Positions 18,583 to 52,018 of a DNA stretch of 64,000 nt are shown piece after piece. This DNA comes from Mariniflexile sp. TRM1-10. Lineage in GTDB: Bacteria > Bacteroidota > Bacteroidia > Flavobacteriales > Flavobacteriaceae. The notes under the pieces were generated by a model. It did no database searches and had not been told where the DNA came from. It saw only the letters and a list, made by a program, of their open reading frames with translations. The position numbers were made by a program, and so were the translations under genes. Within the stretch, counting starts at the first letter, position 1. Every line of letters begins with the position of its first letter. The DNA is taken from NCBI RefSeq assembly GCF_003425985.1, contig NZ_CP022985.1:3270001-3334000 (forward strand), read 5' to 3'.

Positions 18583-18587
18583 TAAAA

Positions 18588-27422: not shown

Positions 27423-27638
27423 GAAGTAATTTAAACTTTTTCTTTTACCTGCAAAATTCACATTTTGCTCCCTAATTTTGACTTTTTATATTCCGTAGCG
27501 ATGCTATGCAACATAAAAAAGGCTTCATTATGAAACAGGGTCGAGCGTAAAAAATAACCCAGTGGGTTATTTTAGTGAACGAGCCAGCTGTCGTAGGGTT
27601 AAATTTTTTGCTTACAAACAAAAAGTTTAAATAACTTC
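27423..27638. repeat. Interspersed palindromic element, copy D (216 bp)
   Basis: Arms GAAGTAATTTAAACTTTTT and AAAAAGTTTAAATAACTTC (ending 27638). The end bases differ from copies A-C but still pair with each other. Inside are TATTCCGTAGCGATGCTATG and, at 27542-27588, the module CGAGCGTAAA + hairpin AATAACCC/GGGTTATT + TTAGTGAACGAGCCAGC. The remaining bases of this intergenic region (27330-27665) show nothing else. Confidence 0.8.
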
Positions 27639-27665
27639 TCTGTAAAATTAATGAAAATAAATGTG

Positions 27666-30600
27666 TTAGCGCTTTAATGTAAAGTGTCCTTTTACTTCGA
27701 AAGGATCCCCATCCTGAATAACTTTAGCAACAAACCAATAATCATCTGAAGGCATATTTTCGCCATTATACGTGCCATCCCATCCATGAGATGTTTGTGG
27801 CAAGGTTTTCAATAATTTACCATATCTGTTGTAAATATAAACAATGGTTCCTGGTAGTTGCTCGATGCCTATAATATGCCAAGTGTCGAAAGTACCATCG
27901 TTATTTGGTGTGAAAAATTTAGGAATATCTATGACTACAACTTCGGTGGTTACGTCTTCGCAACCGTTTAAATCCCTGATGGTTACTAAATGAACGCCAA
28001 ACGTAACGTTTTCAAATACATTAGATGTTTGGGGCTCGCCATCATCTAAAATAAAAACATAATCACCAACACCACTAACATCCACGGTAATACTATTTGG
28101 GTCTGCAAAATCTACCGTCGTGGTAAAGTTTATTCTGGCATCTTCCGATTCTATAACTGAAAAGAATTTAGTATAGGGACAATCCTCTGAAACCACATGT
28201 GGAGTCGTCACAGTTACCCAATAATTGCCTATTTGCGAAACATCATTTAATATAATTTGAGGTGTTGTTTCTCCGGTTGACCATTCGTAAGTGTCATCTG
28301 GGTTTCCTGTATAAGCATCAATAACCAATGGTAAGTTGTTGATACACATAGGAACAATATCGTTTATAGGTATTACAGGAAGTGGGTTTACTATGGTTGT
28401 AAATTGTGTGATATCGTAGCAGCCTGTGATGTCGTTTTCTATTCTTGCGTAAATAACTTCCCCATTAAAAGCAGCATGTAAGTTCCCTAATGCGCTAGCG
28501 CCTGTTTCGGCATTTGCTAAATCATTGTAATAGGTAATAGTATGTGCGCTTGCATCTTGTGTCCCTAATATGTCATTTGCAGTTACCGATAAATTGAATT
28601 CAAAAAAGCCATCAAAATCATCATCACAAGAAATTAAACTAGGTGTTGTATTGGCAACGGGGTTTGGGTTTATTTGTAGAACAAAATCTTGTACAATAAA
28701 ACAGCCTGTTGTATTATTAGAAACTCTTGCATAAATGGTATGATTGCTTGCTGTGTAATTGTAGGTATTTGGTAAAGGATCTGTGTTAGTATCAGCATCG
28801 TTTGGAGTGTTATGATAGGAGATTGTAACACCATTTGTATCGTTTACAATCATGCTGTTAACTAATGCTAAATCATAAGTATCACTATCATTATCACATA
28901 TTTCAATAGTACCAATAGTATTGGTTGGAGGTGGTGTGTTTACAATAAGATCTAAAGGAATAACACTATAACAGCGTGTTAAGGTGTTGGCAATTTTTAT
29001 ATAAACGGTTTTTGAACTTGAATTATAACTTGAAGGATTTGGAATTTCATTTGAATTGTCCAAGCCATCATTAGGGTTGATGTCGCTGAAATTTTCAAAG
29101 TAGTTTATGATGAGATTGCTTTGTACGCGGTCGTTTATTTCAAAATCGGCAGTTTCTAAATCAAAGGTTGTCATGCCATCATAATCCGCGTCGCATTCAA
29201 TTAAAGGAGCCGATACATTGGTAACATCGGGTGGCGCAATAATATTGATGCCTAATTCTTCAACAACAAAACATAACGAGTCGCTACTTTCGATTCTAAC
29301 AAAAAGTGTTTGTGGGTTTGTAGCGTTGGTGTATTGTGCTGGTAAAGGATTGGTGTTGCTTTCAGCTTGTTGATATGTTAAATGGAACGAAATATTTAAA
29401 TTATCGGTAGAGCCTTCGGCAATCTCATTTCGTTTTTCATCTAAATTGAAAATATCTTTACCATCGTTACTGGCATCGTCACAAACGCCATAATCCTCAA
29501 AAAGGGTGTTATAAACTGGGTTTGGAGATACTTGTAATATAAATGATGCCGTGCCAAAACAGCTAGCATCGGTTATATTTTCGACTCTAACATAAATGGT
29601 TTGCGGACTTTCAATATTTTGATAAGAGGTGTTTTTGTCAATCGGAATAGTTAAAGCAGCATCTTCAAAATAAAACACGTCTTTACCTGTTTGCCCGTTT
29701 AGTATTTCGGTATCTTTTTCAGATAATAAAAAATTTGCAATACTATCGCCATCATCTTCACAGACTTTATAATTGCTTATTTCAGGAAAATCGGGTAGTG
29801 TGTTCACTATAACTTCAAAAGATTCAATAGCGTAACAGCCTACTGGAGAAAGGGCGTCTTCAATTCTTATATAAAGTGTTTGTGTATTGGAATTGTATGC
29901 CGCTAACTGAGCATCTGGAATGGGGTTTGTACCCGAATTGGCATCCTCTAAAGATCTATGAACACTAATGTTCAAATCTGTTCTATCGGTTACTGCTTCG
30001 TCAATTTTATCGTTAAGATTGATTATTGCAAACCCATCAGGATTTCCATCATAATCATCACAGATAGGAGGAATGTCGTCTGGTTTACTTGTTGCCGGAG
30101 CTACCAATACTTCAATGTCAAAGGAGTTTACAGTATGACATCCCGTATCTATGTTTTCAATACGTGCATATAGTGTTTCTACGGGTTGTGTATTGGTGTA
30201 AAATGGTGGAAGCATATTGATATTGTCTTCGGCATCTTGTGACGTTGGGAAATAAGTAACGGTAAAATTGGTATTGTCATTTCTAATGATATCATCTAAA
30301 GAATGCAAATCGATATCTACAATACCATCATCGTCGGTATCACAATAAGGTAATGGACTTGCGGAGTTAAATAATAATATGGGGTTGACTAAAAGTGTAA
30401 TCTCAGTCATATCAGAGCAACCTGTGTCGGTATTTTCTATTCTTATGTATAATACTTTTGGACTTATTGCACTGAATAAGTCGCCTTTAGGAATGGCGTT
30501 GGTATTGGAGTCTCTATCTGCTTCAGTATGATAAAAAGTAACCTCGATAGGAAAGGGTAAATCATTTGCAATGTAAGATTCAACAGTATATAGATTAAAG

Positions 30601-32597
30601 TCCATAGTATCTGTATCAATATCATTGTTATCGCACAATGCATAATCACCCGTATCTGTTGCTGTTAATAGTAAATTGGTGTGAATTTCTAATGGCACGA
30701 TAGACGCACATCCGGTATTGTCATCTTCAACCCTAACATATATGGTCTGTTCTTCAAAGTTTGTGTTTTGGTAATTGTTAGGGTCTGTAATTGGATTGGT
30801 GCCCGTTTGGGCATCATCATCACTTTCATGAAAAGTTGTTGTAACATTGGGTAAACCAGCTTCAATATCGCTAATAATTTGTGTTAAATCGAAATTGGCA
30901 AAGCCATCATGGTCTGCATCACAAGCATCAAGGTATCTGGTATCTCTATCTACTATAGGGCTTACGGTAATATTAACTGTTAATGATGTAGTATTTACAC
31001 AGCCAGTTTGGGTGTTAATTATGCGTGGATATACTGTGTAACTATAAGGGGTAGTAGTGTTGATATATGGTGTTCCTAATGGGTTAGCTCCCGTATCGGC
31101 GTCGGCAGGCGTGTCGTGATAGGTTACGGCTAAATTACTTTGGCCATTTGTTATTTCATCATCCTTTTCGTTTAAGTACACGACAGCGTGGCCATCAGGA
31201 TCATCGTCGCTATCGCAAACTTCCAGTGGTGTGGGGTTTGTTATAATTGGTGCTTGATTAACAACCAAATCAAACGTTGTATATGAAAAACAATTGCTGT
31301 CTAAATCATCAATCCTTACATAAATGGGTTGAGGAGAAGTTGTATTGGATATAGGTGCAATAATTTCATTGGCATTACTTCTAGCTTCGGCTTCGGAGTA
31401 GTGGTAACTAAATGTGTAATTTGAAAAAGGGGTGTTGTCACGGATATTATCACTAAGTTCTGTATTTTTTGTTGAAAGGTCAAACGTTTCAATACCATCG
31501 CCACTGACATCATCGCATAAATGATAATCGGTAATCGGGGGTATAGGTTCTTCGGTGTTAAGTACAACAACAATTTCATCTTCTTCAATACAATCATTGC
31601 CGTTTAATGATACTGTTGCTTCTACTCTATAAGTGCCATTTTCAATAACATCTAAAGTTGGATTAACAGCACCTACAATTAAGTTATTATCTAGATACCA
31701 TGCGTACGATGCGTTTGGGTTTTGTATATCAGCATTTAAGGTCGCTAAACTGCCACAGGTTGTAATATCGTCGCCTAAATCCAATATGCTAAAACTATCA
31801 CCTTCTATAAAAACGGCTGAATCGGATTGAAAATCATTTTGATCGGCAATAATTAATTTAATGTGGTATTGTACGTAAGGTGTAATGGTTGCAGATGCGG
31901 TTAATACGGTAGTTCTACCATTGTAATTGGTATCGCCTAAATCGTAACCATCAAAATATTGTGCGTTTTGGGCTGGACAAATAGGCCCGTTACTTCCGTA
32001 AATTTCGTCGTGAATGGTATTTGTACTTACAGGTGTTGAGGTTCCAGGTATTACCGCTATATTTTGATAGGGATCTGTGCTACCTGTTTCTTTAATAAGA
32101 AATACAAAGCCATCGGAAAATTGACAAGGATTAATACCAAAATATTCTTCGGAAGCTAATAAATAATTAAATTGAAGCTGATTGGAAATAGAAACGATAT
32201 CAAATTCTATGGAGGTTGCATTTAAGGTGTTGGATATACCTAAAGCAGTTTCTAAATCGGTGTCTGTTCCCCAGCTTGAAGATCCTTCGCTTAGTGTGGT
32301 GGTTATTTCATTGTTACCACCAGAGGTGGCATTTCCAGTAGAAAGCATGATACCGTTTTGAAACGGAAAGTTAGAGCTACCTCTTTCAAAATACGCATAA
32401 CTTGAAAGACCACCTGAACTTCCGTTTACCGATGATGTTATGTTCGTAATGTCAACACAACTATTTCTAACCAAATTGTCTTCTATAAGTTGTTGTAAAC
32501 CAACCGTTCCATCAACTGTTATTTGTTGGGAAAGCAAGACATTACAGCTACAAATTAGTAGAAGTAAGGTAAGGTAGTTATATAGGTTTCTTTTCAC
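27666..32597 (-). CDS. Large secreted repeat protein, choice-of-anchor L domain and T9SS type B sorting domain
   Basis: 1643 residues. A signal peptide is followed by a choice-of-anchor L-like domain (about 25-270; GIMLSTGNATSGGNNEI, YLLASEEYFG). Then come about eleven repeats of some 95 residues, each opening with a CD..D.DG motif then FDL (such as ACDADHDGFANFDL and ECDADYDGMTTFDL) and ending near TIYVRIE. The C-terminus is a type B gliding-type sorting domain (FFTPNNDGTFDTWHI, IYNRYGKLL, GHFTLKR). The Asp-rich motifs may bind calcium (inference). It is probably a cell-surface adhesin and is followed upstream by a smaller relative. Confidence 0.9.
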   Translation of the reverse strand: MKRNLYNYLTLLLLICSCNVLLSQQITVDGTVGLQQLIEDNLVRNSCVDITNITSSVNGSSGGLSSYAYFERGSSNFPFQNGIMLSTGNATSGGNNEITTTLSEGSSSWGTDTDLETALGISNTLNATSIEFDIVSISNQLQFNYLLASEEYFGINPCQFSDGFVFLIKETGSTDPYQNIAVIPGTSTPVSTNTIHDEIYGSNGPICPAQNAQYFDGYDLGDTNYNGRTTVLTASATITPYVQYHIKLIIADQNDFQSDSAVFIEGDSFSILDLGDDITTCGSLATLNADIQNPNASYAWYLDNNLIVGAVNPTLDVIENGTYRVEATVSLNGNDCIEEDEIVVVLNTEEPIPPITDYHLCDDVSGDGIETFDLSTKNTELSDNIRDNTPFSNYTFSYHYSEAEARSNANEIIAPISNTTSPQPIYVRIDDLDSNCFSYTTFDLVVNQAPIITNPTPLEVCDSDDDPDGHAVVYLNEKDDEITNGQSNLAVTYHDTPADADTGANPLGTPYINTTTPYSYTVYPRIINTQTGCVNTTSLTVNITVSPIVDRDTRYLDACDADHDGFANFDLTQIISDIEAGLPNVTTTFHESDDDAQTGTNPITDPNNYQNTNFEEQTIYVRVEDDNTGCASIVPLEIHTNLLLTATDTGDYALCDNNDIDTDTMDFNLYTVESYIANDLPFPIEVTFYHTEADRDSNTNAIPKGDLFSAISPKVLYIRIENTDTGCSDMTEITLLVNPILLFNSASPLPYCDTDDDGIVDIDLHSLDDIIRNDNTNFTVTYFPTSQDAEDNINMLPPFYTNTQPVETLYARIENIDTGCHTVNSFDIEVLVAPATSKPDDIPPICDDYDGNPDGFAIINLNDKIDEAVTDRTDLNISVHRSLEDANSGTNPIPDAQLAAYNSNTQTLYIRIEDALSPVGCYAIESFEVIVNTLPDFPEISNYKVCEDDGDSIANFLLSEKDTEILNGQTGKDVFYFEDAALTIPIDKNTSYQNIESPQTIYVRVENITDASCFGTASFILQVSPNPVYNTLFEDYGVCDDASNDGKDIFNLDEKRNEIAEGSTDNLNISFHLTYQQAESNTNPLPAQYTNATNPQTLFVRIESSDSLCFVVEELGINIIAPPDVTNVSAPLIECDADYDGMTTFDLETADFEINDRVQSNLIINYFENFSDINPNDGLDNSNEIPNPSSYNSSSKTVYIKIANTLTRCYSVIPLDLIVNTPPPTNTIGTIEICDNDSDTYDLALVNSMIVNDTNGVTISYHNTPNDADTNTDPLPNTYNYTASNHTIYARVSNNTTGCFIVQDFVLQINPNPVANTTPSLISCDDDFDGFFEFNLSVTANDILGTQDASAHTITYYNDLANAETGASALGNLHAAFNGEVIYARIENDITGCYDITQFTTIVNPLPVIPINDIVPMCINNLPLVIDAYTGNPDDTYEWSTGETTPQIILNDVSQIGNYWVTVTTPHVVSEDCPYTKFFSVIESEDARINFTTTVDFADPNSITVDVSGVGDYVFILDDGEPQTSNVFENVTFGVHLVTIRDLNGCEDVTTEVVVIDIPKFFTPNNDGTFDTWHIIGIEQLPGTIVYIYNRYGKLLKTLPQTSHGWDGTYNGENMPSDDYWFVAKVIQDGDPFEVKGHFTLKR

Positions 32598-32724
32598 TTT
32601 GCTTTATTTGGGTAATAAACTTGCTAGTGTTAAGTTTATATCTTGCGAAAAGTAGATAAATTTTAGATGAAACGCAAGAAAAATAGGGTGAAATGCACTT
32701 TTTAGTTGTTTTTAGGTGAAAAGT

Positions 32725-35463
32725 TTATCGTTTTAAGGTAAAATGACTCTTAAATATCCTGCCATCTTGAAGTTTTACGGAAAACCAATAATCGTCTACA
32801 GGTAATTCGTTTCCATTGAATAAACCATTCCAACCGGCGCCTAAAGGATTTATTTCTTTAATTAATTTTCCAAATCTATCAAAAATAAGGATTTTAGTAT
32901 GGGGTTGAAACATACTAGAAACCCCATAAACTTGCCACGTGTCGTTATAGCCATCACCATTTGGAGTGAATACTTTAGGAAAACCTATTACCGACACGTT
33001 GTCCTCACTAAAACCGCAATTGTTTTTCACGTCTTTTACGTAAACAGTATAAAAGCCAGGATGTATATTTTCAAATAAATTGGTGTCTTGGTATGGAGCT
33101 ATTAGTTCTTTGTTTTCGTTGAATAGGGCGTATTGGTAAGTGCCTTCACCAGAAACAAGAACAGTAATGGTATTGTTTCGGGTGACATCTTTAACTTCAA
33201 TGTCATCAATAGTTGCAATGTTTGAAGGTTTAACAGTGATTTTTCGGTCCTTACTGCAACCATTGGCATTTGTTACAGTTACTGTGTAGATTCCAGGGGT
33301 GTTAATGTCAATTTCAGGGGTGTTTTCTCCAGTCGACCACTTGTATGTGTAATTGCTGGGAATATCGTTAATAATACCGGCTTCTAAGGTAATAGGCTGT
33401 GGGGCATAGTTTAAGCAGTACCATTTTTCTTCATCGGCTTCAATAGTTGGTAGCTTGTTTACAATCAAATTTACTTCGCTAATGCCATAACAGTTATTGT
33501 TATTTTCTACACGGGCAAAAATAGTTTGTAAATAAGGATGCTTATTATTTTTAAAAACACTATTTAAGTTATTTTGTTCTAACAAAGCATCATCATATGT
33601 TTCAAAATAAGTAATGGGAAAAGTAAAATTGTTTACTGTTTGTATTTCGCTTGTAATAGTATCCAAGTTAAAGGTGTTAATGCCATCTTCTGAACCTAAT
33701 TCATCACATAATGGTTTGGGTGTGAAGGTGTTTATTTGTGTTATGCTAACATTTAAAGTTAGCTCGGAGAAGTCGAAGCAACCCGTGTTGGTATTGATCA
33801 CTTTTACATAAACTGGAAGTGGATTGTTTGCATCAAATCCATAAGCATTTGGGGCTGGTATTTCATCCATTCTAGCGGCATCAAAATAAAAGCTAGTGGA
33901 AAGCTCTGTGTCATTACCAGTTAAATAGGCTGAAGCTTCATTTAAATTGATTCTTGTAATACCACCCATAATACCATCTTCGTCACATTGTGTTAATGTG
34001 TAATTGTATGCTACCGGATTTGGACGGAATGTTATGTTTGCTATACCTTCAAGTGTTTTATCACATTCACCAGTGTTAGGATCTATAAAAACTTCGTACA
34101 AACCGGTTTCCATAACCTTTAATTCGAAGGTGTTGTCAGGTAATGTTACGCCATTTTTTTTCCAAATATAAGTGGCTCCAGATATTTCCGGCGATTTTAA
34201 GGTGTAACTATCGCCCTCACATAAAAACAGTTCAGTAGATTTTGAATCGTTCCCAATAATATCGATTTTCTCGGAAAAAAATGATGTTATAAATGGTGGT
34301 AAGCCTTGTCGGGCATCATTACTTAATTTAAGACTGTTGTGTACATAATTACAAGCTGCACCAATATTGTTTGGTTCGTTAATAACGGATAAATACGGTA
34401 AGCCTATATTATAAGAGGTGTTCATAGCTCGGTAAATTTTTCCATTAGGACCTAATTGTAGGCCACCTCTATAGGTTTGCCTGTGGTCAATAACAAACTC
34501 GCTATTACTAATATTTGTGGCTGTCAGGTCGTATTGAAGCAATGCGCCGTATTGTGCAGCAGGGTTAAAGCCCTCCTCTTCATTTGTTTGATAGTATGTT
34601 GAGATGTATAATAATTCATTGCTTTGGGAAAATTCTACACCATAAGAAACCTGTGGTTTTTGTCCGTTAAGAGAAAAGCTGATGTTTATAGGCTTCTCAT
34701 TACTTATCACCCCTGTTTCTTTATCAAAATCGTATAAGAATAGTCCAGATGTAGCATTTGAGCTTACTAGTTTTGTACCATCGGGAGATAATTTTAAATA
34801 GCCCCTCGCATCTATAACGTTTGTTGCTTTAGAGGTAATAGGAGTGGGATTTATTCCAGTACTACTCACTTCATAAGCAAAAAAGGTGTTATAGAAATTA
34901 GCTGGATTTGTGCTATTTGGAGCAAGCGTAATAACCCAAATAGATTGGCTAACACAGTCTTTTACAACGGCGGTTACTTTTTCGGAACTAACAGGGAGTA
35001 GGTTGCTGTTTTTTGTAGTGACATTTCCTAAACCACCATTTAACGTCATGTCAACTATAGAATAATTAAAGCCAAAATTAGGGTCGTTTTCACCAACAGA
35101 TGTATCAACAGTGAAAATGTAATATATATTAGGATCGTTTGGTTTTGGAACTACAATAGCAGACTGGGTACTTGAAGGGTCTCCAAATAGACCAAACCCA
35201 TTGGCCATGGCATCATGGTTTTTGTTCCAAACAGTCACGCCATCGGTATAAAATAATAAATTACCATTGGCATCAGAAATAGTTGTACAACCTTCAGTAG
35301 TACTTAATTTTCCATTTGTCAATTCTGTAACGGTACCATTATTGTTAAAACGAATACCTGCATTATCTCCAAAATACCAATTAGCTGCCTCTTTTTGCGA
35401 AAAGCAAACAATGGTACTAAATAAAGCGAATGTTAATAATGTTTTTTTATTTATTGATAGCAT
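32725..35463 (-). CDS. Secreted protein with T9SS type B sorting domain
   Basis: 912 residues from the ATG at 35463, which gives a good signal peptide (MLSINKKTLLTFALFSTIVCFSQ). An upstream in-frame ATG at 35535 would overlap the ABC permease gene by 58 bases. The N-terminal half (NWYFGDNAGIRFNNNGTVT onward) looks like a beta-propeller, with SPDGTKLVSSNATSGLFLYD. Two CD..G..DGI-type repeats resemble those of the 1643-residue neighbour. The C-terminus is a type B sorting domain (KVFTPNGDGYNDTWQV, IFDRFGKLI, SHFTLKR). It is probably cell-surface or released. Confidence 0.88.
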   Translation of the reverse strand: MLSINKKTLLTFALFSTIVCFSQKEAANWYFGDNAGIRFNNNGTVTELTNGKLSTTEGCTTISDANGNLLFYTDGVTVWNKNHDAMANGFGLFGDPSSTQSAIVVPKPNDPNIYYIFTVDTSVGENDPNFGFNYSIVDMTLNGGLGNVTTKNSNLLPVSSEKVTAVVKDCVSQSIWVITLAPNSTNPANFYNTFFAYEVSSTGINPTPITSKATNVIDARGYLKLSPDGTKLVSSNATSGLFLYDFDKETGVISNEKPINISFSLNGQKPQVSYGVEFSQSNELLYISTYYQTNEEEGFNPAAQYGALLQYDLTATNISNSEFVIDHRQTYRGGLQLGPNGKIYRAMNTSYNIGLPYLSVINEPNNIGAACNYVHNSLKLSNDARQGLPPFITSFFSEKIDIIGNDSKSTELFLCEGDSYTLKSPEISGATYIWKKNGVTLPDNTFELKVMETGLYEVFIDPNTGECDKTLEGIANITFRPNPVAYNYTLTQCDEDGIMGGITRINLNEASAYLTGNDTELSTSFYFDAARMDEIPAPNAYGFDANNPLPVYVKVINTNTGCFDFSELTLNVSITQINTFTPKPLCDELGSEDGINTFNLDTITSEIQTVNNFTFPITYFETYDDALLEQNNLNSVFKNNKHPYLQTIFARVENNNNCYGISEVNLIVNKLPTIEADEEKWYCLNYAPQPITLEAGIINDIPSNYTYKWSTGENTPEIDINTPGIYTVTVTNANGCSKDRKITVKPSNIATIDDIEVKDVTRNNTITVLVSGEGTYQYALFNENKELIAPYQDTNLFENIHPGFYTVYVKDVKNNCGFSEDNVSVIGFPKVFTPNGDGYNDTWQVYGVSSMFQPHTKILIFDRFGKLIKEINPLGAGWNGLFNGNELPVDDYWFSVKLQDGRIFKSHFTLKR

Positions 35464-35477
35464 AGCTACCAAAGATA

Positions 35478-36302: not shown

Positions 36303-36321
36303 GTGGTTGGTTTTACTAGCG

Positions 36322-37218: not shown

Positions 37219-37382
37219 GATTCATTTTTTTTATTCAGAAGAAAATTCTGTTTGGTTAGTTTTAGAAGTATGACGATAGTTTGTTTATTTTGTTACATGT
37301 TTAAAAAAAATCCGAAGATTAAATGGTATTATAGCCTGTCCTTTTGATAGCCATCGGGAGTGGTAACAACCTAAAAAAATGT

Positions 37383-37390: not shown

Positions 37391-37406
37391 AATAACTTTA
37401 TATATT

Positions 37407-39047: not shown

Positions 39048-40064
39048 TTATTTGCTAAATCTGTGCAGTGTAAAAGTCATGATGCTTAATAAAAAAAACG
39101 CACCTATTTGATGTGCCACACCTAACCAAACAGGTACTTGTAAAATGATAGTAAATACGCCTAACAAAAATTGGATACCAACCATAATTAATAGTGTATG
39201 TATGCCTTTCGTTTGCATTATAGTAAGCGTTAATTTTTTTGACTTTAGCCAAATTACGACGATGAACAAAACCACAATATAGGCAAGCATTCTATGTACA
39301 AACTGCACACCACTTTTGCCTTCAATAAAGTTTTTGTACAGCGGGGTTTGTTCGATATAAACCGTTTCGTGCATAAATTTACCTTCGGTCATCATGGGCC
39401 AATGGTTATGTATAAAACCAGCATCTAACCCCGCAACAAAGGCACCATAAATTATTTGAAGTAATAAAACGGCAAGTCCCCAACGAATTAGGTTTCTAAA
39501 TTTTATATTGATATCTTTTTTGTTTGGAAATATCAAGTCTAAGGCCACCCAAAATGTGTAGGCAAAGGTTACAAACGCCGTTGTTAAATGGGCTGCTAAC
39601 CTATAATGACTAACATCTGGCATGTCTACCAAGCCACTTTTAACCATGTACCAACCCATAAAACCTTGAAAAGCACCAAGACCTAGCAGTATGATGGCCT
39701 TTTTAATGGTTGGTTTTGTAAGTTGTTTTGTAATTAGAAAATATAAAAATGGCAACAGAAATACGAGTCCAATCATTCTGCCAATAAAACGATGTAACCA
39801 TTCCCAAAAATAAATATCCTTAAAGTCTTGCAGATTAAAATGATTATTGAGTTTTTGGTATTCAGGATATTGCTTATACAAATCGAACGCTTCATGCCAT
39901 TCCGCCTCATTCATGGGGGGGAGTGTGCCAGAAATTAGTTTATAATTTGAAATAGATAAACCAGAATGGGTGAGTCTAGTTATACCACCAACAATTACCA
40001 TAATAAAAATAAGTAAACATCCTGTTAATAACCAATAGATGACTTTTTTGTTGTCTTTTTTCAT
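39048..40064 (-). CDS. ctaA: Heme A synthase (COX15/CtaA type)
   Basis: Inner-membrane enzyme that oxidises heme O to heme A for terminal oxidase. It has eight hydrophobic segments and the family histidine segments GGITRLTHSGLSI, EWLHRFIGRMIG, HYRLAAHLTTAF, FVHRMLAYIVV and GVAHQIGAFF. At 338 aa it is of the two-repeat alpha-proteobacterial/eukaryotic-like length. A (AGTT)12 tract lies 57-104 bases upstream of its start. Confidence 0.93.
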   Translation of the reverse strand: MKKDNKKVIYWLLTGCLLIFIMVIVGGITRLTHSGLSISNYKLISGTLPPMNEAEWHEAFDLYKQYPEYQKLNNHFNLQDFKDIYFWEWLHRFIGRMIGLVFLLPFLYFLITKQLTKPTIKKAIILLGLGAFQGFMGWYMVKSGLVDMPDVSHYRLAAHLTTAFVTFAYTFWVALDLIFPNKKDINIKFRNLIRWGLAVLLLQIIYGAFVAGLDAGFIHNHWPMMTEGKFMHETVYIEQTPLYKNFIEGKSGVQFVHRMLAYIVVLFIVVIWLKSKKLTLTIMQTKGIHTLLIMVGIQFLLGVFTIILQVPVWLGVAHQIGAFFLLSIMTFTLHRFSK

Positions 40065-40069
40065 TTTTT

Positions 40070-40210
<141 letters not shown>

Positions 40211-40216
40211 AAGTTT

Positions 40217-40575: not shown

Positions 40576-40591
40576 GGGTTTTTATTTTTGG

Positions 40592-40684
40592 TTTCAGAGC
40601 TTCAAAGTTTCAGAGTTTCAAAGTTTTTTAGTTAGTTACTTCTCGCTTTGTCACTTTGCTACTTTGCATCTTTGCTACTTTGTA
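40592..40684. repeat. Right flank repeat of the four-helix-bundle gene
   Basis: TTTCAGAGCTTCAAAGTTTC, TAGTTAGTTA, TCGCTTTGTCACTTTGCTAC and TTTGCATC match the left copy at 40070-40210 in the same orientation. The last bases run into the 3' end of the CCA-adding enzyme gene. Confidence 0.75.
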
Positions 40685-42093
40685 ACTTCCAAACCCAATC
40701 GTTCACCTTCTTTCAGCATTAATTTATAGGCTGCTTCATAATCGTTTGGAATATCGCCTTCAAGTATAGCTTCTTTAATGGTTTCTTTAATGATGCCAAT
40801 TTCTTTTGAAGGTTTTAAATTGAAGGTTTCCATGATTTCTTCTCCCGAAATAGGTGGTTGGAAATTTCTAACATGATCTCGCTCTTCAACTTCAATAATT
40901 TTTTCGCGAACAATTTTAAAGTTGTTGTGATATTTATTGAACTTTTTAGGGTTTTTTGTGGTAATATCGGCTTCACAAAGCGTCATTAAATCGTCTACAA
41001 AATCGCCAGCATCAAAAACCAATCTACGAACAGCAGAGTCAGTAACTTCATCATTTGCCAATACAATAGGGCGTGAACTCATTAACACCATTTTCTGAAC
41101 AAATTTCATTTTTTCATTCAAAGGCATTTTTAAACGTTTGAATAAACGATATACCATTTTAGAGCCTTCAAATTCGTGTCCATGAAACGTCCAGCCTACT
41201 TTTTTACTGAATTTTTTGGTTGGTGCTTTTCCAATATCGTGTAATAAGGCCGCCCAACGCAACCAAAGGTCATCGGTGTTTTTAGCAATATTATCAACCA
41301 CTTCTAGGGTGTGATAAAAATTGTCTTTATGGCGTTGGCCTTCAACTTCATCAATTCCTTTTAGAGCAATGAGTTCGGGTAAAATAAATTGTAATATTCC
41401 TGTTTGTTCTAAAAGTAAAAAGCCAATGGAAGGGGTTTCACTTTCAAGAATTTTATTCAGTTCTACGACAATACGTTCGTTGGTTATAATTTTAATCCTT
41501 TCAGAATTTCTAGTAATCGCATCTAAAGAACTTTGCTCTATGGTAAAATTTAATTGTGTTGCAAACCGAATAGCACGCATCATACGCAGCGGGTCGTCGC
41601 TATAGGTGATGTCTGGATTTAAAGGGGTTCGAATGATTTTGTTTTCTAAATCTTGAATACCATTAAAAGGGTCGAGTAAATTACCGAAATGGGTTTCGCT
41701 TAAATCTAAAGCCAAGGCATTTATAGTAAAATCACGACGGCTTTGGTCGTCTTGAAGTGTGCCGTTTTCAACCGCTGGGTTTCTGCTATTTTCGGTATAG
41801 GATTCTTTACGGGCGCCAACAAATTCAACTTCAATGTCATCATATAAAAGCATGGCGGTTCCATAGGTTTTAAAGATCTGTACTTTTGGTTTGTTCGGTA
41901 GGTTTTTAGCAACTTGTTTTGCTAATTTAATACCATCTCCAATGGCAACGATATCAATATCTTTTGCGGAGCCACGTTTTAAAATAAAATCGCGTACAAA
42001 ACCACCAATGACATAGCTGTCTAGATGTAGTTCTTTGGCAGATTTGGAAATTATTTCAAAAATAGGATGATGTAAGGCTTCTTTGTAATTCAT
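40675..42093 (-). CDS. cca: CCA-adding enzyme / tRNA nucleotidyltransferase with HD domain
   Basis: It adds or repairs the 3' CCA of tRNAs. Class II nucleotidyltransferase core: [14 protein letters not shown], metal-binding DIDIV, a [12 protein letters not shown] segment and [15 protein letters not shown]. An HD domain follows ([10 protein letters not shown]). I start it at the ATG 42093 (472 aa), because the longer frame from 42150 adds residues unlike the family. The one tRNA gene in this window lacks an encoded CCA, in keeping with need for this enzyme. Confidence 0.93.
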
Positions 42094-42103
42094 ATTTTTT
42101 TTC

Positions 42104-42119
42104 GCCACTAATACACGAA
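42104..42119. repeat. Inverted repeat, left arm, flanking GxxExxY pseudogene
   Basis: GCCACTAATACACGAA, matched in inverted orientation by TTAGTGTATTAGTGGC at 42545-42560 (15 of 16 positions complementary). Together they bracket the broken GxxExxY gene. Confidence 0.7.
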
Positions 42120-42178
42120 TTTTTTTAATCAATTTTGGAAATATCACCAATAGCTATCTGAGATAGCTCGCAAATCTT

Positions 42179-42539: not shown

Positions 42540-42544
42540 AAATA

Positions 42545-42560
42545 TTAGTGTATTAGTGGC
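42545..42560. repeat. Inverted repeat, right arm, flanking GxxExxY pseudogene
   Basis: TTAGTGTATTAGTGGC, the inverted partner of 42104-42119. It lies 5 bases upstream of the pseudogene ATG and 7 bases beyond the end of tsaC. Confidence 0.7.
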
Positions 42561-42567
42561 TATATTT

Positions 42568-43128: not shown

Positions 43129-43242
43129 ATTATGAACCTTATATTTGCAACGCTGCAAATTTACAACAGAAAATTAATATGATTTGTTTTAAATTGAAGT
43201 AGATTACACAACATCATTTTTTTGAGTATTTATTTTGTTTGA

Positions 43243-43998: not shown

Positions 43999-43999
43999 A

Positions 44000-44758: not shown

Positions 44759-44807
44759 TTATTAGGGGGTTTGTAGGTGTAAAAGTATATTAAATATTTT
44801 TAGAAGT

Positions 44808-46528: not shown

Positions 46529-46553
46529 CTGTTTATTTTTATTGTTTAGTTTG

Positions 46554-46619
46554 GTCAGATGGAACACCCCTGAATAATCATCCCGTGTATGTTAATGCCA
46601 TTCTCATGGGGGTTTCATG
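46554..46619. repeat. Dispersed repeat R3, copy b
   Basis: GTCAGATGGAACACC, AATCATCC, GTGTATGTTAATG, CATTCTCAT and TTTCATGA match 18901-18965 in order and orientation. It fills nearly all of the gap between the Stealth and nucleotidyltransferase genes. Confidence 0.55.
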
Positions 46620-46622
46620 ATA

Positions 46623-47606
46623 TTATTTCAATCTTTCGCTAATCCAATTAAAAATATTTTTTAATGTTTTATCATTAGCCATATCCAAGCTTTGGAAGGT
46701 TATAAAAAGTTTGTTTTTATTCCGTTTAAACAAATATAATTTTAAGTTGGTTAACCAAACCTTTTTGTAGGACCTGAAATAAGTGAGTTGTGAATTATTT
46801 CTATAGTGATAAGTGTTTTTTTTAATCTCTAAATGTTCAGAAAGTGAAGATATGATAAATTGATTTTCATTTCTAAATCGATATTTAACATTATCCTTGA
46901 GGATATCGTTTTTCGCGAAAAAATCTTCTAAGGTAGATTTTCTAACACAAACAGGGGTGTGAAAACGCCTTACATATTTATTTGTTTGTGCTAATTTAGC
47001 ACTGTTCTGCTGAAGCTTTTTAAATCCAGTACCACTTTTATTTACAGGTTTCCCCAAATAGGAGAGCACACTGTGATACAGGTTTCTTAATGTTCTATCT
47101 TCATTAAACTTTTTCCATTTTCCTCTAATTATTGGCTGACCTGCAATGAAAAAGTCATCTACAGACGTTTCACGCATTATAAAGGTGTCGTCATTAAAAA
47201 TAATAAAGTGCTCCGATAAACCAGGTATTCTAAAAAGCATTGAACCTATAGAACAAGAGTTGAAACAAGGCAAATACGCTTCATATCCGCGGAAAATAAC
47301 TTTATGGTCAATTAATTTTAAATTAACATTTTTGCTTTCGGCTAACGTTTTAAGATTGTTAAAAGATTCAGGAGTTTGGTTATCTGTAACTAAATAAATA
47401 TTTTTTATAAATGGAGCAAATTTTATAATAGATCTTATGGCGATATCAATTTCACCTATAGAATTATAACGTTTAAGATGTTCTTTTGACGAGAAGTTTA
47501 TTTTGGCGTTAGAATATGCCGCTATTTTTTCTTGCCAGTTTTTATCATTACCATCTACCCATGTTATTACAGCATCAACTTGGATATTAGGCTTAAGTTC
47601 TATCAT
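46623..47606 (-). CDS. Stealth-type sugar-phosphate transferase
   Basis: 327 residues. CR1 is IQVDAVITWVDGND (residues 8-21); CR2 contains RYNSIGEIDIAIRSIIKFAP, KNIYLVTDNQTPE and FIIFNDDTFIMRE; CR3/CR4-like parts follow (RRFHTPVCVRKST, FRNENQFIISS). Stealth proteins make phosphodiester links between hexoses in capsules and resemble the eukaryotic GNPTAB enzyme. It is first in the minus-strand glycan set and so probably adds sugar-1-phosphate to the same polymer. Confidence 0.9.
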   Translation of the reverse strand: MIELKPNIQVDAVITWVDGNDKNWQEKIAAYSNAKINFSSKEHLKRYNSIGEIDIAIRSIIKFAPFIKNIYLVTDNQTPESFNNLKTLAESKNVNLKLIDHKVIFRGYEAYLPCFNSCSIGSMLFRIPGLSEHFIIFNDDTFIMRETSVDDFFIAGQPIIRGKWKKFNEDRTLRNLYHSVLSYLGKPVNKSGTGFKKLQQNSAKLAQTNKYVRRFHTPVCVRKSTLEDFFAKNDILKDNVKYRFRNENQFIISSLSEHLEIKKNTYHYRNNSQLTYFRSYKKVWLTNLKLYLFKRNKNKLFITFQSLDMANDKTLKNIFNWISERLK

Positions 47607-47667
47607 AAAATTTGCTCTAAGTTATATTTAGTTTTCTTTAAAAATATAAAAATTGTAATTGTTTATA

Positions 47668-48483
47668 TTAAACCGCTACATCGTTTTCACGAAGCGCATT
47701 GTTTAGAGATGTTTTCTTATCGGTACTTTCTTTACGTTTTCCTATAATTAAAGCACAAGGCACTTGGTATTCGCCCGCAGCAAATTTTTTGGTATAACTT
47801 CCAGGAATTACTACCGAACGTGCTGGCACGCGACCTTTCATTTCAATAGGTATGTCGCCTGTAACGTCAATTATTTTGGTACTCATGGTTAATACCACGT
47901 TAGCACCTAAAACAGCTTCAGTTTCAACATGTACACCTTCAACAACGATACATCTAGAACCAACAAATACATTATCTTCAATAATTACCGGAGCTGCTTG
48001 TAAGGGTTCTAAAACACCACCAATACCAACACCGCCTGATAAGTGTACATTTTTACCAATTTGAGCACAACTTCCAACTGTAGCCCATGTATCTACCATA
48101 GTACCTTCATCTACATAAGCACCAATATTAACGTAACTTGGCATTAAAATAGTACCCGCAGAAATGTAAGCACCATGTCTTGCAATAGCATGAGGCACTA
48201 CACGAATACCTTTTTCGGCATAGCCTTTCTTTAACGGAATTTTATCATGGAATTCTAATGGACCACATTCAATGGTTTCCATTTTCTGGATAGGAAAATA
48301 TAAAACAACGGCTTTTTTAACCCATTCGTTCACTTGCCATCCGCCTTCAATAGGTTCGGCAACTCTTAATTCACCTTTATCTAATAAGTCGATTACCTGT
48401 CTAATGGCAGACATCGTTTTGTCTTCTTTTAAAAGGTCTCTATGATCCCAAGCTTGTTCAATGGTTTGTCTTAATTCGGTCAT
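47668..48483 (-). CDS. dapD: 2,3,4,5-tetrahydropyridine-2,6-dicarboxylate N-succinyltransferase
   Basis: Succinylase-route enzyme of diaminopimelate and lysine synthesis. A left-handed beta-helix of hexapeptide repeats is visible (PSYVNIGAYVDEGTMVDTWA, GKNVHLSGGVGIGGV, VFVGSRCIVVEGV), with the C-terminal ARSVVIPGSYTKKF. I start at ATG 48483 (271 aa, MTELRQTIEQAW), as the ATG seven codons earlier adds nothing family-like. Confidence 0.95.
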   Translation of the reverse strand: MTELRQTIEQAWDHRDLLKEDKTMSAIRQVIDLLDKGELRVAEPIEGGWQVNEWVKKAVVLYFPIQKMETIECGPLEFHDKIPLKKGYAEKGIRVVPHAIARHGAYISAGTILMPSYVNIGAYVDEGTMVDTWATVGSCAQIGKNVHLSGGVGIGGVLEPLQAAPVIIEDNVFVGSRCIVVEGVHVETEAVLGANVVLTMSTKIIDVTGDIPIEMKGRVPARSVVIPGSYTKKFAAGEYQVPCALIIGKRKESTDKKTSLNNALRENDVAV

Positions 48484-48812
48484 TTGTATTTTAATTTTTG
48501 GCAAATATAGTAGTATCTACTAAAAAACAGGAACGAAACATCCATTAATATGGATTTTGAAAGTTATTAAAAGGTGTCGTTAATCGACAATTTTCCAAAA
48601 ATTGCTAGCTCATTTTTCCTTTCAAAGAAAAAAATAATCCGATGAAATGCATTTTTGGGGTATTTGGTCTTACAAAACAAGCGTTTTATCTATTTGTCGA
48701 TAAAAAATTGTCGCTCCACTACTAATCGAAAATACAGATGCATATAACTAATTTATTATGTACAAGCTTTCATGTGCCTATATATTTGTCTCATCAAACA
48801 ACAACAAACAAC

Positions 48813-49124
48813 ATGAAAACAAACGTTTACATATTATTAATTTTCTTATTAGCTTTTTCTTTTGGAAATGCACAAAGCACTACCGAAGTTGTAAAAGTTG
48901 AAACTAATAATACTGTTTCTGTTTCTGAAAATGACAAACAAGTTACTGTTGAAAACACAGTTAGCACTGTTAATGTAAACGAAGCTATTTTAATCGATGC
49001 TTCTGAAGTAAAAGAATCTATCGCTCGTAGCAGTAGTGATATTAGACTTTATTTTAACCGTTTAAGAAATATAGATAACTTAAATTTGTTATTTCCTAAA
49101 ATCAATAAAGAAGTAAAAGCTTAA
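48813..49124 (+). CDS. Small secreted protein of unknown function
   Basis: 103 residues from the ATG at 48813, which gives a signal peptide (MKTNVYILLIFLLAFSFGNAQ). The upstream in-frame ATG at 48738 would bury that peptide behind 25 residues. The mature protein is small, Val/Thr/Glu-rich (VVKVETNNTVSVSENDKQ), with a helical tail (SSDIRLYFNRLRNIDNLNLLF). No motif is recognised. A hairpin terminator follows. Confidence 0.7.
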   Translation: MKTNVYILLIFLLAFSFGNAQSTTEVVKVETNNTVSVSENDKQVTVENTVSTVNVNEAILIDASEVKESIARSSSDIRLYFNRLRNIDNLNLLFPKINKEVKA

Positions 49125-49169
49125 ACCAAACAAGAGTTCATATTCAAATATTTAATAAGGTTAAATTAT

Positions 49170-49202
49170 AAAAAGGCTTTCTTTAAAAAGAGGGCCTTTT
49201 TG
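49170..49202 (+). terminator. Intrinsic terminator
   Basis: AAAAGGCTTTCTT and AAGAGGGCCTTTT form an imperfect stem followed by TTGCTTT, about 45 bases after the small secreted protein gene. Confidence 0.75.
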
Positions 49203-49254
49203 CTTTCATACCAATTATTACGGTAAATTCAAATAGTAAATGGTATTATTGCTT

Positions 49255-49262
49255 TATTTTTG
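49255..49262 (+). promoter_or_regulatory. Putative -7 element for ruvX
   Basis: TATTTTTG fits TAnnTTTG, 16 bases before the ruvX start; the -33 box is not seen. Confidence 0.4.
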
Positions 49263-49277
49263 CCTTAAAGAAATGAT

Positions 49278-49688
49278 ATGGCTCGCATTTTAGCAATCGA
49301 TTATGGTATGAAACGCACTGGTTTAGCAGTAACCGATGCGTTACAAATTATAGCTTCTGGGCTTACCACAGTTAACACCAACGAACTGCTTTCTTTTTTA
49401 AAGGATTATATAAGTAAAGAGCCTGTTGAATTATTTATAGTTGGTGAACCTAAACAAATGGATAATACGGCATCTGAAAGCGAAACGTTAATTGCCCCAT
49501 TTTTGAAGAAATTAGAACAGCAATTTCCCAATATACCCATACAACGTATTGATGAACGCTTTACATCTAAAATGGCGTTTCAAACGATGATTGATAGCGG
49601 CTTGAAAAAAAATCAACGAAAAAATAAAGCGTTGGTTGACGAAATCAGTGCCACACTTATTCTGCAAAGCTATTTGTATTCTAAGTAA
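49278..49688 (+). CDS. ruvX: RuvX/YqgF Holliday-junction resolvase-like nuclease
   Basis: 136 residues, RNase H-like fold: ARILAIDYGMKRTGLAVTD with the first catalytic Asp, VGEPKQMDNTASE, and the late IDERFTSKMA and KALVDEISATLIL. The family acts in pre-16S rRNA processing and possibly in recombination. The gene pair ruvX-def is common in Flavobacteriaceae. It is followed by about 210 bases of T/C-rich low-complexity spacer before def. Confidence 0.93.
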   Translation: MARILAIDYGMKRTGLAVTDALQIIASGLTTVNTNELLSFLKDYISKEPVELFIVGEPKQMDNTASESETLIAPFLKKLEQQFPNIPIQRIDERFTSKMAFQTMIDSGLKKNQRKNKALVDEISATLILQSYLYSK

Positions 49689-49869
49689 TTAGGATTTTAG
49701 ACATGTTGGATTGTTACTACTACTTCTCTTGGTTCAAAGTACACAATTCATAATTCATGATCCTATTTTCTATTCTCTATTTTCTCTTGGTTCTTGATTC
49801 TTTTCTCTATTTCCTGTTTTTCAAAAGAATTTATTACTTATTAATACAACCAATAAATTATAAGTATTG

Positions 49870-49877
49870 TATTTTTG
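49870..49877 (+). promoter_or_regulatory. Putative -7 element for def
   Basis: TATTTTTG lies 24 bases before the chosen def start. A transcript starting about six bases later would exclude the alternative start at 49875. Confidence 0.45.
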
Positions 49878-49901
49878 CAGATAATAACAGAAATTATAAC
49901 C

Positions 49902-50492
49902 ATGATTTTACCCATTGTAGCCTATGGCGACCCTGTTTTGAAAAAGGTAGGAGTTGATATAAATAAAGAATATCCAAATCTGGATATTCTACTAGAGAAC
50001 ATGTTCGAAACCATGTACAATGCTAATGGCGTTGGTTTAGCGGCACCTCAAATAGGATTGGCCATTCGATTGTTTATTGTGGATACCACGCCCTTTTCAG
50101 ATGATGAAGAATTGACCGAAGAAGAACAAAAAGCACTAGACGGATTTAAACGCGTCTTTATTAATGCCAAAATTATAAAAGAAGAAGGTGATGAGTGGGC
50201 ATTCAATGAAGGCTGTTTAAGCATTCCAGACGTTCGAGAAGATGTTTTTAGAAAACCAAAAGTAACTATTGAATATCTTGATGAAAACTTTAAACCGCGT
50301 ACCGAAGTTTTTGATGGATTAATTGCTAGGGTTATTCAACACGAATATGACCACATTGAAGGCGTGCTGTTTACAGATAAACTATCAAGTTTAAAAAAAC
50401 GTTTAATAAAAGGAAGACTTGTCAACATATCTAAAGGAAAGATAGATGTAGAATATCGCATGCGTTTTCCAGACCAAAAAAAGAAACGATAA
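49902..50492 (+). CDS. def: Peptide deformylase
   Basis: Removes the N-formyl group of nascent proteins. All three metal motifs are present: GVGLAAPQIG, EGCLSIP and QHEYDHIEG. I use the ATG at 49902 (196 aa, MILPIVAYGDPVLKKVG), which is the family start, over the ATG nine codons upstream. An acidic insert (DDEELTEEEQKALDGF) at about residues 67-82 is common in Bacteroidota deformylases. It is followed 54 bases later by the DUF5606 gene. Confidence 0.95.
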   Translation: MILPIVAYGDPVLKKVGVDINKEYPNLDILLENMFETMYNANGVGLAAPQIGLAIRLFIVDTTPFSDDEELTEEEQKALDGFKRVFINAKIIKEEGDEWAFNEGCLSIPDVREDVFRKPKVTIEYLDENFKPRTEVFDGLIARVIQHEYDHIEGVLFTDKLSSLKKRLIKGRLVNISKGKIDVEYRMRFPDQKKKR

Positions 50493-50546
50493 TATTTGCA
50501 AGACATCAATAAACAGTTGATATTTGCTTTTTTCAAAAAATAATTT

Positions 50547-50981
50547 ATGAGTTTAGAAAAAGTTTTAGCTATAGCAGGGAAGCCCGGATTGTACAAATTA
50601 ATTGCACAAACTCGTGGTGGTTTTGTAGCAGAGTCTTTAATTGATAAAAAACGTTTGTCGGTTAATGTGCAGCAAAATGTAAGCGTTTTAAGTGAAATAG
50701 CAATTTATACTTTAAGTGAAGAAGTGCCTTTAAAGGAAGTGTTTAAAAACATTAAGAAAAAGGAAGATGGCGGACAAACTTCGGTTAAAGCTAAAGATAG
50801 TAAAGATGTGCTAGAAGAATACTTTTTTGAAGTGTTGCCAGATTACGATGAAGACCGCGTATATGTTAGCGATATTAAAAAGGTAATCCAATGGTATAAC
50901 TTATTACAGGAACACAATATGTTGGATTTAGAAGAAGATTCTAAAGCTAAAAAAGAAACAGTTAAAGACGAAGAAGAATAA
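50547..50981 (+). CDS. DUF5606 family protein
   Basis: 144 residues, cytoplasmic. The N-terminal half (EKVLAIAGKPGLYKLIAQTR, AESLIDKKRLSV, YTLSEEVPL) is a conserved small beta domain found beside def in this phylum. The middle is lysine-rich and the end carries LPDYDEDRVYVSDIKKVIQW followed by a charged tail. Function is unknown. Its position downstream of def on the same strand suggests a link with translation, which is inference only. Confidence 0.85.
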   Translation: MSLEKVLAIAGKPGLYKLIAQTRGGFVAESLIDKKRLSVNVQQNVSVLSEIAIYTLSEEVPLKEVFKNIKKKEDGGQTSVKAKDSKDVLEEYFFEVLPDYDEDRVYVSDIKKVIQWYNLLQEHNMLDLEEDSKAKKETVKDEEE

Positions 50982-51057
50982 AAAAACTTTCTTTGTTTTT
51001 TGTTAGATATCAGGCATAGTTTCGACATAGGAATTATGCCTTTTTTAATTGATAATT

Positions 51058-51618
51058 ATGAATATTCCCAAACCAAAAATTAAGCACATTGTTTTTTTAC
51101 TTGTTATAGCGGTTTTAATAATACCCCAAACAAGAAAACCCATTCAAGTTTTGTTACATAAAGCGATCTCATTTATTAGACCAGTAAGTGTAAATGAAGA
51201 AAAACTAACTAAAATCCCGAATTATAATTGGAAATTAATAGATAAAGACAAAGCAATTTTTAATTTTGAAGACACCAAAGGAAAGGTTGTTTTGATTAAT
51301 TTTTGGGCAACTTGGTGTCCGCCATGTATTGCCGAAATGCCAAGTATGCAAGCGCTTTATAATGATTATAGTGATAAGATAGTGTTCCTTTTTGTTACTA
51401 ACGACTGGTTTAGTAAGGTTGATCCGTTTTTAGAAAAAAACAATTATACCTTTAAAGTGTATAGGCCCGCAGAAGCATATCCTGATTTTTTCAATATTCC
51501 AACCATTCCAAGAACATTTTTAATAGACAAGGAAGGGAATGTTGTAATTGATGAAAATGGGGCTGTCAACTGGAACAGTAGTAAAATAAGAACCACGATT
51601 GATGATTTATTAAAATAG
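51058..51618 (+). CDS. TlpA/ResA-like thioredoxin-fold protein
   Basis: 186 residues from the ATG at 51058; a TTG three codons earlier is also possible. An N-terminal membrane anchor (HIVFLLVIAVLIIP, about residues 11-24) precedes a periplasmic thioredoxin domain with active-site WCPPC in FWATWCPPCIAEMP and the cis-Pro region NIPTIPRTFLID. It is likely a disulfide reductase for exported or cytochrome c-type proteins. Its TAG stop shares a base with palindromic element E. Confidence 0.9.
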   Translation: MNIPKPKIKHIVFLLVIAVLIIPQTRKPIQVLLHKAISFIRPVSVNEEKLTKIPNYNWKLIDKDKAIFNFEDTKGKVVLINFWATWCPPCIAEMPSMQALYNDYSDKIVFLFVTNDWFSKVDPFLEKNNYTFKVYRPAEAYPDFFNIPTIPRTFLIDKEGNVVIDENGAVNWNSSKIRTTIDDLLK

Positions 51619-52018
51619 AAGTGATTTAAACTTTTTCGATTGAAGCAGGACGGAGCGTGAAAAAATAACCCAGTAGGTTATTTTAGCGAACGGGCCAGCC
51701 AGCGCAATGGCAATTTTGTCCAATCGAAGCCTTTTTAGAATTAGGGTCGAGCGTAAAGAAAAGGTTTAGTAAATCTTTTTAGCGAAGGAGCCAGCTTGTC
51801 GCGTTGGAAAAGCTACGGAAAGAAAAAAGACAGGACAGAACGTTAAGAAACCGTAAGGTTCACGAACACGTATTTTTCAAATAATTAAGTGTCGTGAGTA
51901 AACAGTCCTGTGGTCTGTTTTAGTGAAATCGAAGATTCGGCATAGCCAATGGGCCGGGAGGCGCCTAGAGCAAAAAAGGGCGATTTTTTAGCCAATTGGA
52001 AAAAGTTTAAACCACTTC
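51618..52018. repeat. Interspersed palindromic element, copy E (401 bp)
   Basis: Longest member. Arms GAAGTGATTTAAACTTTTT and AAAAAGTTTAAACCACTTC (ending 52018). It holds two clear inner modules (51652-51699 with hairpin AATAACC/GGTTATT; 51748-51795 with hairpin AAAGGTTT/AAATCTTT). Both begin GAGCGT and end TTTTAGCGAA.G.GCCAGC. Two weaker modules lie at about 51838 and 51897. The reverse of the CTTTTCTTCCTTCCGTAGC landmark also occurs. It lies between convergent genes, and its first base is the G of the upstream TAG stop. Confidence 0.85.

Follow-up and report, generated by a model that had tools for sequence, protein, structure and literature searches.

The window examined here is a stretch of 64,000 nucleotides of Mariniflexile sp. 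TRM1-10 (contig NZ_CP022985.1, positions 3,270,001 to 3,334,000 of the forward strand), and it holds several copies of a short module in which a fixed sequence frame surrounds a hairpin stem that differs from copy to copy. An original prediction, made from the letters of the window alone, had named four such modules, all of which are indeed present, together with two weaker ones that are discussed below. The modules of the window are not free-standing, each being enclosed by a larger hairpin element that we call a carrier (Table 1).

A fixed frame around a covarying stem

An alignment of 35 modules from the host and other genomes defines a conserved unit of about 69 nt, AGGRC-N-GARCGTNAARAAA-stem-AGT-stem-TTTTAGYGAA-N'-GRGCCAG-NYKGCGCRNYGGC; the frame originally described is therefore real, while its extent of about 48 nt was too short, judging by the boundaries of R1, the covariance model built for the module. 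The unit is an imperfect hairpin with AGGRC-N-GARCG on its 5' side, followed by a 3' tail that bears GCGC. Read from the foot upwards, the hairpin starts with a lower helix GGRCN/N'GRGCC, above which come tandem G-A mismatches (GA/GAA) and a short helix of G-C or A-T pairs. An internal loop rich in A then leads to the apical helix, which has seven or eight pairs and is closed by a loop that is mostly AGT. A strict pattern of this frame (GAGCGTRAA..TTAGYGAA..GNGCCAGC), run over the whole host genome of 4.86 Mb in one contig, gave 23 exact matches, against none for the reversed pattern used as control, and R1 found 87 matches in the same genome at E<=0.01.

Covariation was measured, with 500 shuffles each time, in the 35 modules, aligned by sequence only, and in a second set of 55, taken from other genomes and fitted to the model. 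In the first set, 97.5% of the cells are paired, a value that falls to 37.6-48.2% when the partners are slid by 1-3 columns, and changes on both sides of a pair occur in 100 cells, against a shuffled mean of 31.4 that never reached the observed number (0/500). The second set is paired in 98.5% of its cells and has 116 both-side changes against 23.0, 13 pairs with such changes against 6.7, and 29 further pair types against 20.8, none of which was equalled in any shuffle (each 0/500). The original claim of a fixed frame around a stem whose sides vary together is thus borne out in both sets (0/500 each), and a covarying stem in a constant frame is what would be expected for a site recognised by its structure. 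The frame itself takes part in this pairing, given that the border pair N6-N46 is GC in 18 modules, CG in 11, and AT in 5, with one mismatch, and that a further inner pair of the frame switches from G-C to A-T. Because N-N' and the inner pair covary, the borders that had seemed constant make up the bottom of a single hairpin; they are conserved, as had been said, and they form a lower helix of their own instead of remaining unpaired.

The copies of the window illustrate how the stem varies. At 51652, the stem is mismatched (C-A) beside its loop, and the one at 51748 holds a G.T pair, which makes it intermediate between copies with AAAGGTTT/AAACCTTT and copies with AAAGATTT/AAATCTTT. The two weaker modules that had been placed at about 51838 and 51897 are related sequence, and by eye they are the halves of one AACAGTCC-type module, split by an insert of about 50 nt, the model giving only a partial match to this module (51893-51927, E 0.0037); counterparts lacking the insert are known at three other loci (L030, L010, and L036).

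There is also an excess of G.T pairs inside the module (44:10 and 41:3 with the stem's foot pair included), much of which comes from that foot pair. Frame and tail could also form a pseudoknot (GCG/CGC), although the columns concerned hardly vary. The tandem of G-A mismatches is suggestive of a kink-turn, a claim that we dropped since Watson-Crick pairs replace the tandem in two rows of the alignment (L279 and L281). Counting as genic any open reading frame (ORF) of >=100 aa across the module, some of them possibly chance frames, modules are genic in only 2 of the 89 model rows of the host (two of the rows being duplicates) and in 8 of the 55 modules from elsewhere.

Carriers and stem lineages in the host genome

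The main carrier family ends in sequences such as GAACTCGTTTAAAC or GAAGTGGTTTAAAC, for which the genome has 128 matches, with positions known for about 100 of them, and the control has none. A script found 76 candidate carriers in the stretches of the genome examined; their lengths cluster near 48-49, 158-163, 212-220, and 272-273 bp, with others up to 401 bp, and candidates longer than that have poor ends. Among the 63 candidates whose ends agree at >=12/15 bases, 39 are flanked by an exact 3-bp duplication, against a mean of 6.7 and a maximum of 16 in 2000 shuffles. These carriers display two features of miniature inverted-repeat transposable elements (MITEs), namely terminal inverted repeats (TIRs) and a target duplication of fixed length. 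The carrier core of about 160 bp is a single long hairpin; of 25 elements measuring 158-163 bp, 24 fold more stably on the core strand, with G.T against A.C at 119:48. The carriers of lineage D (the GAGACTG family) behave in the same manner, the module-sense strand being more stable in all 15 that the script caught out of 25, with G.T:A.C at 90:18. A module-free carrier of 160 bp with AAT at both sides was also found in Kordia jejudonensis.

Regarding what moves the carriers, the PF01609 transposases of the host genome (three matches; this was the one transposase family searched for this purpose) have inverted repeats different from those of the carriers and were ruled out as their movers. No clean orthologous empty site for the 51618-52018 carrier was obtained in Mariniflexile gromovii or Mariniflexile sp. 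AS56, which are the closest named relatives by one window protein (78% and 76% identity, respectively), because both carry a different downstream gene. At the left end of this carrier, the TAG stop codon of ORF 51049-51618 takes its last base from the terminal G of the carrier TIR (window 51615-51618), and relatives (L054 and L055) have TAA at that stop codon. The two ends of a carrier tend, moreover, to vary jointly, as in GAACTC/GAGTTC, GAAGTGG/CCACTTC, and GAACTCATTTAAAG/CTTTAAATGAGTTC (for example, 3853-3926, 11314-11473, and 27423-27638), with an exception at L160, which has one end of each kind; such joint change is unusual for a plain DNA transposon, and hairpin-templated correction or selection on the fold could account for it.

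Table 1. Modules and carrier elements located in the window
Feature	Position	Strand	Details
Module, lineage A forward, AATAACCC AGT AGGTTATT	51647..51715	+	R1 84.7 bits; inside 401-bp carrier
Module, lineage B, at carrier tip; stem AAAGGTTT/AAATCTTT	51743..51812	+	R1 77.7 bits
Module, lineage C, split by ~50-nt insert	51832..51969	+	From sequence; ends approximate, by eye
Module, lineage A reversed relative to carrier core strand	27537..27604	+	R1 71.9 bits
Module, lineage D, stem AAAGGTCT/AGACCTTT	18670..18739	-	R1 75.5 bits
Carrier hairpin, 401 bp, TIR GAAGTGATTTAAACTTTTTC / GAAAAAGTTTAAACCACTTC	51618..52018	.	Modules A, B, C; flanking 3-bp direct repeat ATA
Carrier hairpin, 216 bp, TIR GAAGTAATTTAAAC / GTTTAAATAACTTC	27423..27638	.	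One module; 3-bp direct repeat TCT
Carrier hairpin, other family, TIR GAGACTGTTTAAA / CTTAAATAGTCTT	18586..18793	-	Module D; ends approximate
Carrier family, short 74-bp form	3853..3926	.	Module-free; no exact 3-bp repeat
Carrier family, 160-bp form	11314..11473	.	Module-free; no exact 3-bp repeat
Carrier family, 161-bp form	25091..25251	.	Module-free; 3-bp direct repeat TAA

The modules occupy three sites of the main carrier core, and each site keeps its own main stem type in the host genome. Sorted by their junction motifs, the 87 copies comprise 25 of the GAGACTG family, 16 of lineage A reversed, 13 of lineage A forward, 11 of a third family, 11 at the carrier tip, 7 in the 3' arm, and 4 classed as other, three of which are tip copies by eye and the fourth L341, the weakest match, with no convincing inverted repeat around it. 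Lineage A is present in three carrier settings and in both orientations, and in the elements compared, those at sites B and C have the sense orientation relative to the core strand. Two of the sorted copies, L335 (sorted as A reversed) and L338 (sorted as B), are flanked by other inverted repeats, matching at 14/16 and 21/24 bases. The stem had originally been called exchangeable, and as a rule for the host genome, free exchange between lineages was rejected, given that each lineage retains its own stem at its own site; exchange is seen in two cases, one being the introns of genome G751 described below and the other L340, a chimera on the minus strand (G000:C1:4447941-4448016) with one half from an inverted lineage C and the other from lineage A, joined near the loop. 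The original prediction was to be refuted if its borders were just part of one recently copied repeat, which holds for the host inasmuch as most of its copies were apparently multiplied by carrier copying, or if other copies had random interiors without stems, which does not hold, because the frame recurs with different stems in 14 families.

Other repeats lie elsewhere in the window. A two-copy repeat (4307-4395 and 10227-10315, 80% alike), containing CTGAGCCTAGTCGAAGTA or a near form of it, is unrelated to the module. A repeat with a 162-bp period (22260-23207) runs in five registers inside ORF 22195-23484, and four of the registers resemble the reference copy at 63-85%. At 14068-17204, three consecutive ORFs, each about 1.05 kb long, share long direct repeats and are apparently paralogous, and two runs of 8-base repeats lie close together at 40060-40215 (TTCAAAGC/TTCAGAGC) and 40577-40696 (AGTTAGTT).

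Other genomes, group II introns, and tRNA-end units

In a survey of 395 sampled Bacteroidia genomes (E<=1e-4, strict filters, twelve candidates scored per genome), the module was found in at least 25, host included, across 14 families. The strict pattern is present in 10 of 397 genomes of the host family, again with the host included, and the reversed control gave 0. At two of the loci (L181 and L184, around position 1501), the module lies between two diverged copies of a gene start (argB-like in L181, by eye), an arrangement that looks like a duplication of the gene's 5' end enclosing the module.

The module takes the position of domain II in four group II introns of three genomes (L166, L266, L259/L295, and L283/L297), and a second module lies in domain I of one of the G751 copies. 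In all five insertions, the module is sense to the intron; the domain II copies score 65.8-88.1 bits with the model and the domain I copy 52.7 bits. The same genome, G751, holds a module-free sister intron, which refutes the idea of the module as a constant part of group II introns, and in a sample of introns collected by their DIII motif, 2 of 18 loci have the module, the remainder being module-free. The sister intron reads CTTACCGAG|GGAGCTCTCAATAGT|TACGAGC at the site that is filled in the others, so that up to 15 nt were replaced in domain II (12 if a shared AGT is assigned to the flank), and CTGAAG|GAAGCAAG|ACTGC at the domain I site, with up to 8 nt replaced. The module-free form of domain II looks ancestral, because other module-free introns have a similar GGGAG-TCT stretch there, and we read the two sites as probable gains of the module and not as losses.

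Over about 228 nt, the filled G751 copies differ only by an indel in a run of A and by four substitutions, all of which fall in the two apical pairs of the stem; these compensated pairs are CC/GG in one copy and TT/AA in the other. Since the adjacent domain I module has the TT/AA stem, conversion from this neighbour is a simple explanation. A different setting is found at three further loci (L261, L274, and L281), where by eye the module occurs in tandem or single units between 3'-end pieces of tRNA genes, these pieces being inverted or direct and derived from a neighbouring intact tRNA-Phe or tRNA-Glu.

A proposed REP-like element and its alternatives

We read the module, with about an even chance of being right, as a small mobile element of Bacteroidia that is non-autonomous, similar to repetitive extragenic palindromic sequences (REPs), and recognised while folded as a single strand. 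The conservation of the frame across families, combined with a free stem, suggests a factor that reads the fold, and some movement of the module by itself is suggested because it replaces target bases without duplication and sits in varied carriers; the strand bias, in turn, points to a single-stranded form, either RNA or DNA. The active form would be one strand folded into the imperfect hairpin, and a putative protein, probably a dedicated enzyme acting in trans, would read the fixed loops together with the fold while ignoring the sequence of the apical stem. The stem could thus drift through compensated changes, with occasional conversion from an adjacent copy, and a new insertion would swap out up to about 8-15 target bases. 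The surviving insertions would be those in places tolerant of hairpins, such as intron domains I and II, the tRNA 3'-end units, and the arms or tip of MITE-type hairpins, by what may be either a preference for loops or a mere tolerance of them. The host copies would nearly all have been multiplied afterwards by their carriers, and insertion of the main carrier family produces 3-bp duplications.

Several results weigh against this proposal. As many as 86 of the 87 host copies lie within larger hairpins, as judged from junction motifs and by eye, so that independent movement of the module must be rare in the host and carrier copying explains most of its copies; at both intron sites, the module has no target duplication, and no insertion event was witnessed. 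Two of the five covariation measures are weak on the sequence-only alignment, with further pair types at 23 against 22.7 in the shuffles (271/500 as high) and pairs with both-side change at 8 against 6.3 (18/500), and the G.T excess inside the module becomes modest without the foot pair (27:10 and 8:3). The strand bias of the carriers includes two of the 25 elements, L036 and L136, that are of other families and arbitrarily oriented, one of them being the single element in which the core strand is not the more stable; without them, the core strand is more stable in 23/23, with G.T:A.C at 109:44, in elements that are mutually related. Furthermore, the 16 of 87 copies sorted as lineage A reversed (with L335 and L340 as misfits among them) run antisense to the core strand, which weakens a purely RNA-level reading. 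No match was found by the strict pattern in viral contigs or with one module as query in plasmids, and 80 titled loci (1.36 Mb) had no genuine module, carrier ends of Kordia being found there. Finally, no mobilising enzyme was found: 54 partly overlapping loci of Y1_Tnp proteins (about 1.5 kb around each), which include only 30 of the matches from other families, few of these being of the weaker 180-210 aa kind, contained no confident module, the best scoring 18 bits (E 0.087), and a looser pattern on 24 of them gave nothing convincing.

The first alternative, which we hold to be possible though doubtful, is that the module is a structured RNA with a function, a binding or processing site in transcribed hairpins, introns, and 3' regions. 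Its structure would be maintained because the RNA acts in cis or serves to protect or process transcripts, and its dispersal would be a by-product of the carriers. The excess of G.T over A.C on one carrier strand, the sense orientation in all five intron insertions and at sites B and C, the G.T intermediate at window 51748, and the 87 of 89 host rows lacking an ORF across the module would all suit such a motif. The antisense copies of lineage A do not suit it, nor does the want of a covering Rfam family, and the patchy presence among the class genomes, even as a lower bound, is as for a selfish element. A G.T pair is milder than an A.C pair in single-stranded DNA too, and therefore, the G.T bias does not single out RNA. 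A more speculative extension of the mobile-element proposal, to which we assign a rather low probability, is a class-wide family of mobile folds entering the loops of folded RNAs (those of group II introns, transcribed hairpin elements, and tRNA-end units) by loop replacement, perhaps when a reverse transcriptase or replication complex switches from one folded template to another; hairpins would thereby move into other hairpins, the frame being kept and the stem exchanged.

It is unlikely, in our judgement, that the modules are REPs mobilised by TnpA-REP (RAYT) proteins of the Bacteroidetes subclass 2.6, which PMC6006769 describes with atypical flanking secondary structures. A multicopy imperfect hairpin with a variable stem and no target duplication would fit, and Y1_Tnp proteins are present in 21/21 searched module genomes outside the host family (of 22) and in 5/10 within it, host included, frequencies that were counted in module-bearing genomes only. 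Against it stand the Y1_Tnp loci already mentioned, including three with subclass-2.6-like proteins by motif (L208, L364, and L365), near which there is no confident module, and the missing GT[AG]G foot. Among five loci whose flanks were inspected, L364, in the module-bearing genome G625, has a TnpA-REP-like gene bracketed by several palindromes of the type CCGCAGGATTTGCAATCCTGCGG, unlike the module. That only the MITE-like carriers move, with the module as a long-standing internal component copied along with them, is most improbable, since, for all the nesting of the host copies and the TIRs and 3-bp duplications of the main carriers, the module occurs with other stems in group II introns that have module-free counterparts (a contradiction unless these insertions are unrelated), in tRNA-Phe and tRNA-Glu 3'-end units (by eye), and in 13 other families, while carriers free of it exist, also in Kordia jejudonensis, and lineage A stands in both orientations.

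No family of Rfam 15 covers the module in the window, in 34 other-genome module loci, or in one further host locus, even with a permissive threshold on 51550-52050 (501 bases), and in the intron copies, the family group-II-D1D4-1 overlaps at most about 23 nt of the module 3' end. A description of the module was not found in the literature searched, and an earlier notice of it is possible in the supplementary tables of PMC6006769, which list atypical structures of subclass 2.6.

The value of this family lies in its strongly conserved frame and drifting stem, in at least 14 families, together with a natural pair with and without the module at two intron positions. It allows one to ask directly what protein recognises a fold and not a sequence, whether in RNA or in single-stranded DNA, and in what way foreign hairpins are tolerated by group II introns, and the covariance model is offered to annotators for a sequence lying outside all Rfam families. 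REP-like elements are common, yet for many groups neither the enzyme nor the logic behind them is known.

Among known systems, MITEs and modular repeats such as BOX of pneumococcus and Correia elements resemble the carriers with their TIRs, 3-bp duplications, and modular make-up, whereas the module itself differs from them by having neither TIR nor target duplication (as seen at the two intron sites), by its unrelated carriers, and by its conservation across families with compensated stem changes. Single-strand sites of the integron attC type are recognised by their fold, with the sequence of the stem being free, and the module may resemble them in this idea of fold recognition. From domain II of group II introns, the module is set apart by the sister intron that lacks it. 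The GTAG REPs of RAYT and the CGTC REPs, as described in PMC3733652 and PMC6006769, are like the module in being short, multicopy, palindromic, variable in stem, and mostly outside ORFs, some being inserted within other palindromes. The module matches them as a short multicopy palindrome (87 host matches with a covarying hairpin), whereas its frame of about 69 nt, its tandem G-A loop, its tail, its occurrence in group II introns, and its absence beside the RAYT genes tested are unlike them. The GTAG/GTGG tetranucleotide is absent from the 5' foot, which is AGGRCNGARCG in most rows of both alignments, and the 35-module alignment does not show the set of traits that PMC3733652 gives for CGTC REPs, a CGTC tag, a stem starting with AT, and a CCA tail; according to the same paper, these REPs lack a dedicated transposase. 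The module resembles REPs in kind, with the RAYT enzymes as the closest mover known, while it carries neither the GTAG nor the CGTC tag and, within the loci tested, is not associated with the gene.

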